Below are positions 26,234 through 36,544 of a stretch of DNA of 64,000 nucleotides, piece by piece. The number at the start of each line of letters is the position of its first letter. The stretch's first letter is position 1. The position numbers and the translations under genes are program-made. The notes beneath the pieces were generated by a model. It saw only the letters and a program-made list of their open reading frames with translations. It searched no databases and was not told the DNA's origin. Source of the DNA: Elusimicrobiota bacterium (GTDB lineage: Bacteria; Elusimicrobiota; Elusimicrobia; UBA1565; UBA9628); contig JAHFCF010000004.1 in NCBI GenBank assembly GCA_023249645.1, forward strand, positions 64,821 through 128,820. The letters are read 5' to 3'.

Positions 26234-26883
26234 ACTCTTTTTTCTTTTCGATCCTGGCCGCCAGCGCTTGGGCTGAGCCATCCTCGACGGCCACGGTCGC
26301 GGCGCCTGTCGTGGCCAAGGCGGCGATGTCTTCTTCCAGGGTCCATGTACGCGTGGGACTGGATGCGGAGGACTGGAAGCCGGTCTCCGTGCGCCGGGTC
26401 TCCGGCGGCGCCGGCCGGACCGGCTTTGAGCGTCAGATCAAGAGGGGCCGCGGCCAGAAATCAACGGCCAGGGCCTCGGCGCGCAGCTATGTCGTCAAGG
26501 GCGGCAAGCAAGTCATCATCAGCGTCTATCCCTCCTCCTTGCGCCTGGCGCGTACGCATCTGGAGGCGCGCTTTCTGGTCGATAGAGGAGAACTCGAGTC
26601 AGCTTCCGTGGTTGCCGTGACCATGGTGGGGGGGATCGCTTCTCCTGAGGACGAGAAGGAGGATTCCGTCACCCTTCGGGCCAAGGGCGTTGACTTCTTG
26701 GAGGAGTCTCCTGCCAGCGGCACGATCCTGCTTTCAGCCTTGGCATCAGGGCCGGGGCGGGCCGCCAATGCGGGGCGCGTGCAGGACGCCGCGTTCGGCA
26801 GCTCGAGCCTGGGTGTCGTGGATTTCTCGTGGACTCTTTCTCAGGTCGGTGATCGGTCTTTTCAGAGACCTAAGAAGCGGTAG
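26230..26883 (+). CDS. Exported protein of unknown function
   Basis: The protein has 217 residues with a short signal peptide (MNSFFFSILAASAWAEP). A basic, glycine-rich stretch follows (GGAGRTGFERQIKRGRGQKS), then a beta-rich part (YVVKGGKQVIISVYPSSL, LEARFLVDRGELESASVVAV) that could be an immunoglobulin-like fold. No catalytic motif was recognised. Its ATG overlaps the valS stop (ATGA), so it depends on that transcript, and its end overlaps the convergent mutY by 14 bases. Function unknown. Confidence 0.6.
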   Translation: MNSFFFSILAASAWAEPSSTATVAAPVVAKAAMSSSRVHVRVGLDAEDWKPVSVRRVSGGAGRTGFERQIKRGRGQKSTARASARSYVVKGGKQVIISVYPSSLRLARTHLEARFLVDRGELESASVVAVTMVGGIASPEDEKEDSVTLRAKGVDFLEESPASGTILLSALASGPGRAANAGRVQDAAFGSSSLGVVDFSWTLSQVGDRSFQRPKKR

Positions 26884-27865
26884 GTCTGGCGCCTGTCAGG
26901 GCTTTCAGCCAGAGTGACGACACTAAAAAGTCCTTAAGGTTTTTGCGTGCCACCCAGCGTGTCTGCGTCGGCTTGCGTCCTGCCAGCTGGCCGCGATGAA
27001 GAACGAGGGTGATTCGATAGCGTGTGATGGCGTGGCGTACGGTCTTCATCAGCGCGCCTTTCTGGGACTTGAGCTGGTGCTCCTCGGGCAGGCCCCAGAG
27101 ATTTTTGAGGATCAGTTCCTTCGGCCCACGTTTAAAAAGGAGAACGGAGCCGTTCTTCTCGATCCAAAGGCAGTGTAAGCGCAGATCGGTCGTTTTTGGC
27201 CGCGGCCCCAGGACGGGCAGGCGGTCTTGCCAATCCTTGGCCTTGGCGATGCAGTATCTGTTCCACGGGCACTCGCCGCAGTGCGGATTCTCAGGTAGGC
27301 AGATCGTCTCGCCGAGCTCCATGACGGCCTGGTTCCAGTCTCCGGGATGGCGGCGGTCGAGGAGGTCTTGGGCCTTCTGGCCCAGCAGACGCTGGGTCGA
27401 GCTTGTGCGCGCGTCGGATCGTATCCCGAAAATCCGGCACAACACTCGGATGACATTTCCGTCCACGACCGCGAAGGGTTGGTTGAACGCGATGGAAAGC
27501 ACGGCCGCGGCGGTGTATGCGCCCACGCCGGGCAATCGGCGCAAGGCGGACTCATCGGCCGGCAGCTTGCCCTTGTGCTCGGCCATGACGAGCCGGGCTG
27601 ACGTGTGAAGATTCCTCGCCCGCGCGTAGTAGCCGAGCCCGGCCCATTCCCTGAGGACTGCTTCGCAGCGCGCGTCGGCGAGGCTTTTTAAGTCCGGGAA
27701 CCGGCGCAGGAATCTTCCGTAGCGCGGCAGGACCGCCGCGATCGTCGTCTGCTGCAGCATGGTCTCCGCCACCCAGACGCGATAAGGATCAGCCTTTAGA
27801 CGCCAAGGCAGGGGCCTGCGCATGCGGCCGTACCATTTCAGGAGCGACGGTCCGAGGGGATTCAC
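26870..27865 (-). CDS. mutY: A/G-specific adenine glycosylase MutY
   Basis: MutY removes adenine mispaired with 8-oxoguanine. The protein has 331 residues. Catalytic glutamate in VAETMLQQTTIAAV, helix-hairpin-helix LRRLPGVGAYTAAAVLSI, catalytic aspartate in FAVVDGNVIRVL, and the iron-sulfur loop CLPENPHCGECPWNRYC (C-x6-C-x2-C-x5-C) are all present. A NUDIX-like C-terminal domain follows (LFKRGPKELILKNLWGLPEE). The start is GTG at 27865, overlapping the stop of the BON lipoprotein gene (GTGA). Confidence 0.96.
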   Translation of the reverse strand: MNPLGPSLLKWYGRMRRPLPWRLKADPYRVWVAETMLQQTTIAAVLPRYGRFLRRFPDLKSLADARCEAVLREWAGLGYYARARNLHTSARLVMAEHKGKLPADESALRRLPGVGAYTAAAVLSIAFNQPFAVVDGNVIRVLCRIFGIRSDARTSSTQRLLGQKAQDLLDRRHPGDWNQAVMELGETICLPENPHCGECPWNRYCIAKAKDWQDRLPVLGPRPKTTDLRLHCLWIEKNGSVLLFKRGPKELILKNLWGLPEEHQLKSQKGALMKTVRHAITRYRITLVLHRGQLAGRKPTQTRWVARKNLKDFLVSSLWLKALTGARPTAS

Positions 27866-28149
27866 TCGGAGACGATGAGGTTGACGATGACCTGGTCCAC
27901 GCCCTTGGTCTGGCGCGCGGCGCGGTCGATGAGGTTCTTTTCTCTCAGGCTGCTGACCATGCCGGAGAGCGTGACCACGCTGTCGGTGACGTCGATGGTC
28001 ACGTAGCGCAGGTTGACGCCGGATTGGCTCTTGAGAGAGCTTAACACGCGCGCCTTGACCGCCGCGTCGCTGGAGTCCATGGGCTGGGCCGTGCGCAGAC
28101 AGGCTCCGAGGCTCAAGACCAGGAGCAAGGCCGTGAAAAAGCGCGCCAT
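27862..28149 (-). CDS. BON-domain lipoprotein (OsmY-like)
   Basis: The protein has 95 residues. A lipoprotein signal peptide ends in a lipobox (LVLSLGAC), followed by one BON domain (VKARVLSSLKSQSGVNLRYV, TIDVTDSVVTLSGMVSSL, then GVDQVIVNLIVSE). BON domains bind phospholipid and are found in envelope stress proteins. It overlaps mutY downstream by 4 bases and is divergent from the rdgB fusion gene, 40 bases away. Confidence 0.9.
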   Translation of the reverse strand: MARFFTALLLVLSLGACLRTAQPMDSSDAAVKARVLSSLKSQSGVNLRYVTIDVTDSVVTLSGMVSSLREKNLIDRAARQTKGVDQVIVNLIVSE

Positions 28150-28189: not shown

Positions 28190-30454
28190 ATGGACCTCCT
28201 TTTGGCGACGCGCAACAGGCACAAGATCCTCGAGCTCTCCAGCCTTTTGGCTGATGGGTGCAGGCTCCTTTCCTTGGACGATCAGAGGGATGCTCCCGCG
28301 GTGGTGGAAGATGCCGCCACGCTGGAGGGCAATGCGCAGAAGAAGGCCGTTCAAACGGCCCTGGCGACGGGGCTTTGGTGCTTGGCGGATGACACGGGCC
28401 TCGAAGTGGATGCGCTGGGCAAGGCCCCGGGCGTTCTCTCCGCGCGCTTTGCCGGACCGCAGGCGGATTATGAGGCCAACAACCGAAAACTTTTGGAATC
28501 CTTGAAAGGCATGCCTGCCGGCCGTCGTCAAGCCGCCTTCCGAACGATCATGGCTCTCTCCAGCCCCGATGGCCGCTGCGTGTGCGAAGAGGGACGTCTC
28601 GAGGGCGTGATCGCTGAGAAACCGGTCGGTGCGAACGGTTTCGGCTATGATCCGCTCTTTTTCATCCCATCCTTGGGAAAGACTTTGGCCCAGCTGTCTT
28701 TGCCTGAGAAGAATTCCATCAGCCATCGTGCCGCAGCTTTGCGCAAGATCCTGCCTCACATCCGCAGGCTCATGATCGCAGCGCTCCTGGGTCTTTGCGC
28801 GACTGAGGCCTTTGCCGGACGCACGGAGCCGGGCGGCCAGACCGTCTGGGACCAGATCATGGCTGCCCAGGCGAACCGGAGCCTGCAGCAGGGTGCGCGT
28901 TATCTTGATTCCAAGCAGTATGAAACGGCCCTGCATGAATTCTCGCGGGCCGTTCAAGCCAATCCCAATGACCCAGCCACGCACCTGATGCTCGGCGTGG
29001 CGTATTACTGGAACGGTCAGGTGGATCTCTCTTTGGAGGAATACCGCAAAGCCATTGCTCTCGACGCGCGCAACGCTCAGGCCTGGCTGCTCACCGGCAT
29101 CTCCCTGGCCTGGAAGGGGGAGGTTTCGGGCGCCCATGAGGCCTTCAAAAAGGCCGCCGAGCTCGACCCTTCTCGTCCGGACGCTCAGATGAACCTGGGT
29201 TCCATCGAGGAATCCCTGAACATGATGAGCGAGGCTCTCGATCATGTTCGCAGGGCGGTCTCTCTCGACGACAAGAATCCCCTCTATCATTTCCAGCTCG
29301 CCATGCTCTACCGCAAGCTCGGCCGCGACACGGATTCGATCGATTCCCTCAATGGCGCCATCCATCTCTTCCCGGATTTTGAGGATGCGCTTTTGGAGCT
29401 CGGCGCGGCCCAGGAGCGCCTGGGCGAGCGCGCAGGCGCCTTGAAGAATTTCCGTCAGGCGGTGGATTTGAAGCCCCGCGATGCCGCGGCGCGCTTCCGA
29501 CTGGGCCGTTTGTATCTGATCGATGGCAACGCCAGCCGTGCCCGCGCGGTCCTTGCCGAGGCTTTTCATCTGACGCCGGAGGGGGAAGGCGGCGGGCTTC
29601 GCCTTTCGGTCTCCTATGCGGGCGGCAAAAAGCCGTCTTCAGGTGGAGCTCCTGACAAGAGCGAAAATCCATCGGCGCCTGCGGAGAACCCCAACGATCC
29701 TCTCTCGGTCTTCTCCCGTAATCTGGAGCGCATCCCCTTGGATCAAAGCGCTCTCATGGAAGTGGACGTCGTCTTCGTGCCCAAGCCGACCTTGGTCCAG
29801 GCCTCTGCGGAGAGCGCCTCGTCCTTGAAACGGGCGCTGTCCAAGCGTCTGGCCGATTCCGAGGGGACTGCGCGCGCCGTGCGAAGGCAGTTCGAGCTGC
29901 GCGCGGCGCCTGGGCCTGAGCGTGCGGCGCAGATCAAAAAGGTTCTCGATGAGCTGCGTTCGATCATGCAGGAGGCGCCCGAGGGGTCGGACACGCGCTT
30001 GGGCATGAACCTCACCTTCACGCATCTGACAGCGGCCAATGCGCGCGCCAATGCTGAGACGCCCCCCAAGGTCTCCTATGAGCCGCGCCAAGTGGGCAAT
30101 GACCTGGGGCTGTGGGTCGTCGGGACGGGCTGGATGGCTTTGGTCGAGGAGGTCCTGCCGGAATCCGAGGAGGCATCCTTAAAGGACCAGAGCGATTGGT
30201 GGTCAACCACCGGCCTGGGCTATGCCGTGATCGGCGACGGCCAAAAGGCGCGCGCCGCCTTCGATCGGGCCGTCGAGCTTGACTCCAGCAGCCTGCCGGC
30301 GCTGCTGGGCCGCTCCGTGTCCGCGGTCATGACCGGGGATGAGGCATCCGCCGTGGCCTCCCTGCGCGCCGCATTGAAGATCGCTCCCAAGAATCGCACG
30401 GCGGCCGAGGGCTTGAAATGGCTCCTGCGGCCGTCCACGGCTCCGAAAAAATGA
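28190..30454 (+). CDS. rdgB: RdgB (ITP/XTP pyrophosphatase) fused in frame to an exported TPR protein
   Basis: The frame has 754 codons. Residues 1-193 are a complete HAM1/RdgB nucleotide pyrophosphatase: LLATRNRHKILELSSLL, LADDTGLEVDALGKAPGV, SARFAG, GANGFGYDPLFFIP, EKNSISHRAAALRKILP. Where the gene should stop, an in-frame ATG at 28772 begins what looks like a signal peptide (MIAALLGLCATEAFAGR). This is followed by at least six TPR repeats (THLMLGVAYYWNGQVDLSLE and so on) and a long C-terminal region with another TPR. No stop separates them. Either this is a true fusion with an internal hydrophobic anchor, or the TPR protein is also translated separately from 28772 (weak GCAGG before it) and exported. 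Confidence 0.85.
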   Translation: MDLLLATRNRHKILELSSLLADGCRLLSLDDQRDAPAVVEDAATLEGNAQKKAVQTALATGLWCLADDTGLEVDALGKAPGVLSARFAGPQADYEANNRKLLESLKGMPAGRRQAAFRTIMALSSPDGRCVCEEGRLEGVIAEKPVGANGFGYDPLFFIPSLGKTLAQLSLPEKNSISHRAAALRKILPHIRRLMIAALLGLCATEAFAGRTEPGGQTVWDQIMAAQANRSLQQGARYLDSKQYETALHEFSRAVQANPNDPATHLMLGVAYYWNGQVDLSLEEYRKAIALDARNAQAWLLTGISLAWKGEVSGAHEAFKKAAELDPSRPDAQMNLGSIEESLNMMSEALDHVRRAVSLDDKNPLYHFQLAMLYRKLGRDTDSIDSLNGAIHLFPDFEDALLELGAAQERLGERAGALKNFRQAVDLKPRDAAARFRLGRLYLIDGNASRARAVLAEAFHLTPEGEGGGLRLSVSYAGGKKPSSGGAPDKSENPSAPAENPNDPLSVFSRNLERIPLDQSALMEVDVVFVPKPTLVQASAESASSLKRALSKRLADSEGTARAVRRQFELRAAPGPERAAQIKKVLDELRSIMQEAPEGSDTRLGMNLTFTHLTAANARANAETPPKVSYEPRQVGNDLGLWVVGTGWMALVEEVLPESEEASLKDQSDWWSTTGLGYAVIGDGQKARAAFDRAVELDSSSLPALLGRSVSAVMTGDEASAVASLRAALKIAPKNRTAAEGLKWLLRPSTAPKK

Positions 30455-34364: not shown

Positions 34365-34928
34365 ATGATCAGCACTTCCGATTTTCACAACGGCCTCGTT
34401 TTCGAGGACGAGGGACAGATCTGGGAGATCCTCGCCTACCAGCATCACCGCAAATCCCAGTCAGCGGCCGTCTACCGCACCACCCTGCGCTCCCTGGCGA
34501 GCGGCGCTGTCTGCGAACGGTCCTACTCCTCGGGCGCGAAATTCAGGGAAGTGCCGGTGACCAAACGCGAGAAGCAGTACAGCTACGACGAGGGAGACAA
34601 CGCCGTGTTCATCGACCTGGAGACCTACGACCAGGTCTCCTTCCCCAAGTCCCGGCTCGGGCTCCAGGCCAGGTTCCTGCGGGAGAATATGGAGGTCCTG
34701 GGAGTCTATGTCGATGGGAAATTGACGAACATGGAGTTCCCGGCCAATGTGGTCCTGACCGTCACCTCCACGGTCCCGGGGATCAAGGGCGACTCGGTCT
34801 CCAACATGATGAAGCCGGCGACTCTCGACACGGGCTTGGAGGTGAACGTCCCTCTCTTCATCAAGGAAGGCGACAAGATCCGGGTGGACACCCGCACGGG
34901 CCAGTACGTGGAGCGCTTCAAGGAATGA
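34365..34928 (+). CDS. efp: Elongation factor P with glutamine at the loop tip
   Basis: EF-P rescues ribosomes stalled at polyproline. The protein has 187 residues with the three beta domains and typical C-terminal blocks VTSTVPGIKGDSVSNMMKPA, TLDTGLEVNVPLFIKEGDKI and RVDTRTGQYVERF. An ungapped alignment by eye with E. coli EF-P over domain I puts Gln32 (in HHRKSQSAAV) at the position of the modified Lys34, and the PGKG loop is missing. It is preceded by AAAAAGGAG. Its stop overlaps the protease gene start (ATGA), an unusual coupling. Confidence 0.93.
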   Translation: MISTSDFHNGLVFEDEGQIWEILAYQHHRKSQSAAVYRTTLRSLASGAVCERSYSSGAKFREVPVTKREKQYSYDEGDNAVFIDLETYDQVSFPKSRLGLQARFLRENMEVLGVYVDGKLTNMEFPANVVLTVTSTVPGIKGDSVSNMMKPATLDTGLEVNVPLFIKEGDKIRVDTRTGQYVERFKE

Positions 34929-36544
34929 AGCGGCTGGCCCTCGGGATCATCCTTCTCTGCGCCGCTGGCCCCTCCTGGGCCATCCGGGTGGAGAAGCTCG
35001 AGGGGGCCATGGTGGCTGGGGTGCGTCCCGTGGAGGTCGTGGCCGAGCAGCTTCTGGTGCGTTTTTCCAGCCAAACGACACTGGCTCAGCGGGAAGCGGC
35101 GCTTTCCTCTCTGGGCGGCCGTCTGGTGCAGGAGCATGCTTCTATCGGCTGGTCTTTGGCGAGTCTGCCCTCCGGTATGAAGGTCTCGTCGGGGGCGAAT
35201 CTCGTGCGCGGCTTGCCCGGCGTCGAGGCGGTGGAGCCGAACCAGGTGCATCGGCCCAATCTGGTCCCGAACGACCCTTTGGTCTCATCGCAATGGGCCT
35301 TGAGCCAGATCAACGCCTTCGGCGCCTGGGAATATGAGGTGGGGACCTCGTGCCGGACCACCATCGCCATCATCGATGCGGGCATCGATTCGACGCAGAA
35401 CGAGCTTTCAGGCAAGATGACGGGCTTGAGCCATCAGACCTGCCCTCCCGGCAGCCTGGTGCCCGACTGCTCATCGGACACGGCGTCGCCGACCGTGGCC
35501 TGCAACCATGCCACCCACGTGGCCGGCGTGGCCGCGGCTGCCGGCAACAACGGCATGCAGATCGCCGGCGTGGCGTGGGGCAGCGAAGCGAAGATCCTCT
35601 CCCTGCGGGTCTACACGCCTACGGATTGCAGCGCCAATTGCGCAGACAACGGCTCCAACGTCTGCGCGACCGATGACAACGCCATGATCTCGGCCTTGGA
35701 GTTCCTCATCCCCCTGGAAAACACGGCGACCTATGGCAAGATCGTCGCCAATATCAGTTCCGGCGGAGCCGGGGCCTGCTCGCAATCCATGGCCGACGCC
35801 CTGACGGCCGCCCTGACGGCCGGCATCCCCGTGTCCATTTCGGCCGGCAACGACGGCGGCCTGGTCAACTCTCCGGCCAACTGCGCGGCCATCCCCGAGG
35901 TCTCGGCGATCGGGGGCGTATTCCCTACGGCGGCGACGGATTCCACCAATCACATCGCCAGCTTTTCCTCCAACGGCTCCACCATGGCCGCCTATGGGGT
36001 GGCGGCGCCCGGCGTGGCGGTCTTGACCACGGACCTCAGCAACGGCACGGTCAACGCCTCGGGCACTTCCTTTTCCGCGCCCCATGTGGCGGGACTGGCG
36101 GCCTTGATCATCGCCGCCAGGCCGGACTGCCGGGGGCTCAACTGCGCGACCTTCGCCTACAACACGATCCGGGGGGGCGCGGAGTCGATCGGCGCGTCCA
36201 GCTCCCTTCAAGGCGCCGGACGCATCAATGCCTTGCGTTCTTTGCGTCTGGCGGTCAACGGCACCTTGGCCGGGTTTGAAGGCGAGCAGAAGGCTGCGGC
36301 ATTCCCCAATCCCTTTCGGACCTCGCAGTCAGGTTCGGTGTCCTTCTCTATCCCGCCCAGCCTGCAGGGGGGCAATGCCACGATCAAGATCTATACCGTC
36401 GCCGGCGAGCTCGTCCAGAAGCTGACGGGGCTGACTTGGGACGGCAAGAATACCGCGGGTCGGTTCGTGGCGACGGGGACTTATATTTTTGTCGTGTCTA
36501 CGGACAAAGGGACGACCCGCGGACGGGTGGCGGTGATCCGATGA
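34925..36544 (+). CDS. Secreted subtilisin-family serine protease (S8)
   Basis: The protein has 539 residues. Signal peptide (MKRLALGIILLCAAGPSWA), an I9-like propeptide (about 40-110: AEQLLVRFSSQTTLAQREAA, GVEAVEPNQVH), then the S8 catalytic domain with Asp in IAIIDAGIDSTQNE, His in CNHATHVAGVAAA and Ser in ASGTSFSAPHVAGLA. Several extra cysteines suggest disulfides and an extracellular location. The C-terminal 90 residues (AFPNPFRTSQSG, IKIYTVAGELVQKLTGLTWD, GTYIFVVST) form a FlgD-like/T9SS-type-A-like beta domain. It sits in an efp-protease-DUF192 chain with 4-base overlaps. Confidence 0.95.
   Translation: MKRLALGIILLCAAGPSWAIRVEKLEGAMVAGVRPVEVVAEQLLVRFSSQTTLAQREAALSSLGGRLVQEHASIGWSLASLPSGMKVSSGANLVRGLPGVEAVEPNQVHRPNLVPNDPLVSSQWALSQINAFGAWEYEVGTSCRTTIAIIDAGIDSTQNELSGKMTGLSHQTCPPGSLVPDCSSDTASPTVACNHATHVAGVAAAAGNNGMQIAGVAWGSEAKILSLRVYTPTDCSANCADNGSNVCATDDNAMISALEFLIPLENTATYGKIVANISSGGAGACSQSMADALTAALTAGIPVSISAGNDGGLVNSPANCAAIPEVSAIGGVFPTAATDSTNHIASFSSNGSTMAAYGVAAPGVAVLTTDLSNGTVNASGTSFSAPHVAGLAALIIAARPDCRGLNCATFAYNTIRGGAESIGASSSLQGAGRINALRSLRLAVNGTLAGFEGEQKAAAFPNPFRTSQSGSVSFSIPPSLQGGNATIKIYTVAGELVQKLTGLTWDGKNTAGRFVATGTYIFVVSTDKGTTRGRVAVIR

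Follow-up and report, generated by a model that had tools for sequence, protein, structure and literature searches.

RdgB, of the Ham1 family, is an enzyme of the cell interior that destroys damaged DNA building blocks, and it normally occurs as a free cytoplasmic protein. Bacterial genes whose single chain yields two proteins destined for different compartments are, to our knowledge, few, and the one bacterial precedent we know of in which an internal signal peptide yields two proteins from a single chain is FbcH of Bradyrhizobium japonicum. In that case, one gene encodes the precursor of cytochromes b and c1, which carries an internal signal peptide and gives rise to two mature proteins. The gene described here lies in a window of 64,000 nucleotides (the whole stretch of DNA analysed, to which all positions refer) from the genome of an Elusimicrobiota bacterium, assembled as 2.27 Mb in 38 contigs. 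It resembles the RdgB/Ham1 family (PF01725, with Escherichia coli RdgB as the reference) in having a full-length domain with the family motifs, but differs from E. coli RdgB in that this domain runs in frame into a predicted signal peptide and a TPR protein. We consider it likely that the gene is a natural two-product polyprotein, with RdgB retained inside the cell and the TPR part exported after a cut by signal peptidase I behind A209.

A single open frame of 754 codons occupies positions 28190–30454 of the forward strand and ends in TGA, with no stop between its parts, as the earlier note had read it. In order, the frame encodes the RdgB/Ham1 domain (XTP/dITP diphosphatase; residues 1–193, 28190–28768), a signal-peptide-like segment (about residues 185–209) and the TPR protein (from residue 210); named homologues matching the product are nearly all from Elusimicrobiota. 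The junction reads RKILPHIRR-LMIAALLGLCATEAFA-GRTEPGGQTVWDQIM before the TPR repeats follow, and the peptide across it is HIRRLMIAALL. The last RdgB helix, RKILPHIRR (residues 185–193, 28742–28768), appears from its charge pattern to double as the n-region of the signal, whilst the hydrophobic core and c-region, LMIAALLGLCATEAFA (residues 194–209, 28769–28816), can be aligned with the signal peptides at the N-termini of free-standing relatives. The hydrophobic stretch after Met195, whose ATG lies at 28772–28774, is short and ends in A-F-A (LMIAALLGLCATEAFA, then GRTEP). The predicted signal peptidase I site, AFA followed by G (residues 207–210, 28808–28819), would be cut between 28816 and 28817, and the predicted mature exported protein (residues 210–754, 28817–30451), delimited by comparison with free-standing Elusimicrobiaceae orthologues that have their own ATG and signal peptide, would begin GRTEPGGQTVWDQ....

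The earlier claim that RdgB is present at full length is borne out. PF01725 matches residues 3–188 with 194–197 bits (curated score 22.5; E 3e-57 to 2.8e-58) and the solved E. coli RdgB, 2pyu, aligns over residues 3–192, and the enzyme domain is therefore complete. The motifs T-x-N-x-x-K, DDTG, FGYDP and SHR are all found in the window protein (P0001) and are kept in 28 of 30 untruncated fused copies from relatives, the exceptions being G261, whose sequence was cut by trimming, and G279, which reads EDTG. Judged by its sequence, the RdgB part is a clear homologue slightly below the naming cut-off of the NCBIfam equivalog TIGR00042 (136.3 bits against 145.35). Within the GTDB family of the window genome (f1), 40 of 44 genomes have a PF01725 match, exactly one in each, as does the window genome itself; the fused copy is therefore the cell's only RdgB of the Ham1 family, and the same search found no second, free RdgB in f1 genomes that would make it dispensable.

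In the TPR part, Pfam TPR families cover about residues 231–465 plus the C-terminal end. The structure model, made with AlphaFold for the whole chain and used solely for the TPR layout, since the alignment covered only the TPR half and the RdgB part is accordingly poor, places a solenoid with confident helices at about residues 219–456 (28844–29557). A four-strand region without a Pfam match follows (predicted strands, about residues 457–647, 29558–30130), and the chain ends in terminal TPR helices (about residues 648–746, 30131–30427). As an aside, TPR proteins are greatly expanded in one genome of the window's genus (G006, 2.9 Mb), which gives 142 matches to the TPR query, many of them in very long open frames.

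The fusion is widely conserved. It occurs in frame in 31 of the 38 assessable f1 genomes; these 31 represent several genera, were assembled separately and include 5 of the 7 genomes of the window's own genus. With a further case in a sister family (G285), this makes 32 fusions, and in a minority of the relatives the two parts are split. Across these 32, the junction, measured from RdgB residue 165 to TPR residue 222, is 168, 171, 174, 177, 180, 183 or 186 bases long, always a multiple of three. Pooled over 11 pairs of fused relatives, pN/pS comes to 0.46 for the linker, compared with 0.23 for RdgB and 0.21 for the TPR part, and each pair taken singly gives a linker value below 1 (0.19 to 0.89). 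Together, the multiples of three and the linker ratios indicate that the linker is translated and under purifying selection. The same one-frame layout in 31 f1 genomes and in a sister family rules out chance and assembly error, so that an error which removed a stop or start, conceivable in that relatives have overlapping ATGA or GTGA pairs whose frames a one-base mistake could join, is given practically no credence. A recent stop loss does not describe this family either, nor do the outcomes that the earlier note had named as refuting, a sequencing error or consistently separate genes in relatives. At the same time, seven f1 genomes have rdgB and tpr re-split, which shows that the fusion is not essential.

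The joint had been described as resembling a signal peptide, and the comparison with relatives supports this. The ten residues before the hydrophobic core carry a net charge of +1 to +4 in all 32 fusions, with basic residues supplied by the last RdgB helix (RR, KK or R-L-R), and 16–22 residues separate the last charge from the predicted cut. A small-x-Ala/Ser site follows the core in every fusion, against a mean of 11.5 and a maximum of 21 after shuffling residues; position -1 is Ala in 31 and Ser in one genome, position -3 is Ala, Val, Ser, Gly or Cys, and position -2 is varied. The cut-site rule of signal peptidase I is this small-x-Ala pattern (PMC9360617), and all 32 sequences thus present the features of its substrates: basic n-region, hydrophobic core and cut site (with Ser in one). 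A gene for signal peptidase I (PF10502) is found in the window genome. The cut site may be partly inherited from the free-standing state, though the surrounding sequence has widely diverged.

The conserved cut site suggests that one chain is cleaved by signal peptidase, and the kept frame, cut site and charges, together with the loss of start codons described below, make a polyprotein the simplest model; the signal peptide has probably been kept for cutting one chain into an inside and an outside protein. We infer the topology, the cleavage, the fate of the tail and the benefit of such an arrangement from sequence. A single ribosome would synthesise RdgB, the internal Sec signal and the TPR protein in that order. 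RdgB, lying ahead of the signal, would fold and remain in the cytoplasm, with its last helix, basic at its end, serving as the n-region; the hydrophobic core would enter the translocon, the TPR part would be exported, and signal peptidase I would cut after A209 (AFA-209). Cleavage would release a free TPR protein into the periplasm and leave RdgB with a C-terminal tail of about 16 mostly hydrophobic residues. This tail could hold RdgB at the membrane, or an intramembrane protease could trim it, RseP being one that acts on membrane-spanning signal peptides (PMC9360617). On balance, we also favour, somewhat less firmly, the extension of this model to the family as a whole, in which a soluble housekeeping enzyme would act as the N-terminal extension of a Sec signal, signal peptidase I would free tail-anchored RdgB inside and the TPR protein outside at a fixed 1:1 ratio, and lineages would alternate between overlapping and fused genes.

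Two other readings have to be weighed against cleavage, both of them possible in single genomes. An uncleaved, signal-anchored fusion would keep RdgB in the cytoplasm, cross the membrane once and tether the TPR part outside for good. The single frame with its hydrophobic stretch agrees with such an anchor, and 16–22 residues could span a membrane; Ala at -1 in 31 of 32 fusions with a free -2 is, however, the pattern of a cleaved signal, and the free-standing relatives have the same cut site. The anchored RdgB proposed in the earlier note thus stands as a possibility that fits the position -1 residues less well than a cleaved signal does, and we regard permanent anchoring as unlikely.

Still less probable, in our estimation, is dual or internal initiation, in which most of the exported protein would come from an internal start, with the long fusion as a by-product. 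The window gene does have an ATG at 28772, and in seven relatives the last RdgB helix contains one from which a good signal peptide would result (for example MLPHLRR... in G002). A product begun at 28772, however, would read MIAALLGLC, without a basic n-region, and a counterpart of Met195 is absent in most relatives, being found in the window genome and a few others. Moreover, nine of the 32 fusions lack any ATG, GTG or TTG 12 or more residues before the cut site, in 16 no such start would preserve a basic residue in the n-region, and the TTG share of Leu codons there is only mildly raised (0.169 vs 0.117). Independent starts would not require the frame to be kept, yet it is kept through seven junction lengths. 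A conserved internal start before the signal peptide is thereby ruled out, although weak CTG or other starts might operate in some fusions, and stop loss with dual translation from the ATG at 28772, as first suggested, is not supported in general, nor does that ATG belong to the conserved design.

The relatives in which the two genes are separate suggest how the fusion arose. The TPR orthologue of Elusimicrobiaceae (L009–L017, L019) is free-standing; it resembles the window protein in its mature part (34–37% identity), its signal peptide and a TVWDQIM motif, but has its own ATG and does not have rdgB alongside, no rdgB match having been found near it in those loci. In families f2 and f3, as well as in two more distant ones (G277, G224), rdgB lies directly upstream of tpr. 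These adjacent pairs have the same two genes in the same order as the fusion, but as separate and often overlapping frames (GTGA or ATGA), several of them at GTGA-type joints (G276, cggTGAgcgcc; G306, tcgTGAtgacc), which is the usual layout for translational coupling; in G305 the genes are likewise split, with frames that differ across the junction. The adjacent pair is probably the ancestral arrangement, from which the fusion would have come. As a separate observation, RdgB of family f3 (L149 in G305, L150 in G306, L163 in G273) ends in a Cys-rich tail resembling a zinc ribbon; in G306 this tail is CPLCGLEMDAWHCRELCPGCGYQIDC.

On a maximum-likelihood tree of both proteins, with the junction columns left out, the fused or split state needs 8 changes, and equal-cost parsimony favours a split root (8 vs 10 changes); G165 (long-branch misplacement) and G294 (later TPR part frameshifted) were dropped for a second tree. 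The count of 8 is accounted for if the genes fused once at the base of f1, were split again in some lineages and fused independently in G285; were no splits allowed, 20 separate fusions would be needed. Splits nested among fused relatives are seen in G304, in G217, in G154 and G168, in G191 and in G001/G005. The base of f1 is thus the probable point of origin of the fusion, with at least five re-splits after it, one of them through a palindromic repeat. G001 (L024) and G005 (L023) have in common an insert of about 60 bases with which a stop was brought in, whilst their close relatives G002 (L020) and G003 (L025) are fused and lack it, a pattern that could be explained by two losses or, alternatively, by a deletion that re-fused the genes. 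In G191 (L065), the split lies at an inserted stretch near the rdgB stop, flanked by inverted copies of AACCACAAAGACACAAAG, of which this genome has 10 exact copies, some as inverted pairs about 100 bases apart. The fused G130 (L056) has its sole exact copy in the junction (contig C50, 66204–66221), where it encodes part of the hydrophobic core (CVFVSLWF). From their distribution, the AACCACAAAGACACAAAG arms are a dispersed palindromic repeat, the G130 copy being a putative remnant arm.

Other pairs of genes in the window deserve mention. Divergently beside rdgB, on the reverse strand (26870–28149), lie a MutY-like glycosylase gene and a gene for a small BON-like exported protein, both names being assigned by eye from the sequence; like RdgB, MutY protects against damaged bases. 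At 34365–36544, an EF-P-like gene shares an overlapping ATGA (34925–34928) with the start of the gene for an exported subtilase (PF00082), a further cytoplasmic and exported pair in a layout from which fusions can arise. A scan of the long open frames of the window for internal signal-like segments returned one candidate besides rdgB-tpr, namely the frame reaching back from this subtilase at 34925, which is not a fusion.

Family-wide conservation, with split relatives available for comparison, makes this gene a natural experiment on how overlapping genes fuse. It also bears on whether a Sec signal can still work behind a folded cytoplasmic enzyme, and on whether it matters that RdgB is made in fixed stoichiometry or tethered to the membrane. 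On the practical side, annotation pipelines may label the whole gene as RdgB and overlook the exported protein, or do the opposite.

No earlier description of an RdgB-TPR fusion was found in the literature searched, whose coverage left out most subscription journals, and no prior case was found in viral contigs. Like FbcH, the window gene is a single gene for one precursor with an internal signal peptide; here its continuous frame over both products is conserved, and the two mature products are predicted. In contrast, both FbcH products are membrane-associated parts of one complex, whereas the N-terminal partner in the window gene is a soluble cytoplasmic nucleotide-pool enzyme without known link to its exported partner. 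A soluble nucleotide-pool enzyme fused with an exported protein, in an arrangement that a whole family conserves but has repeatedly split, thus looks new.
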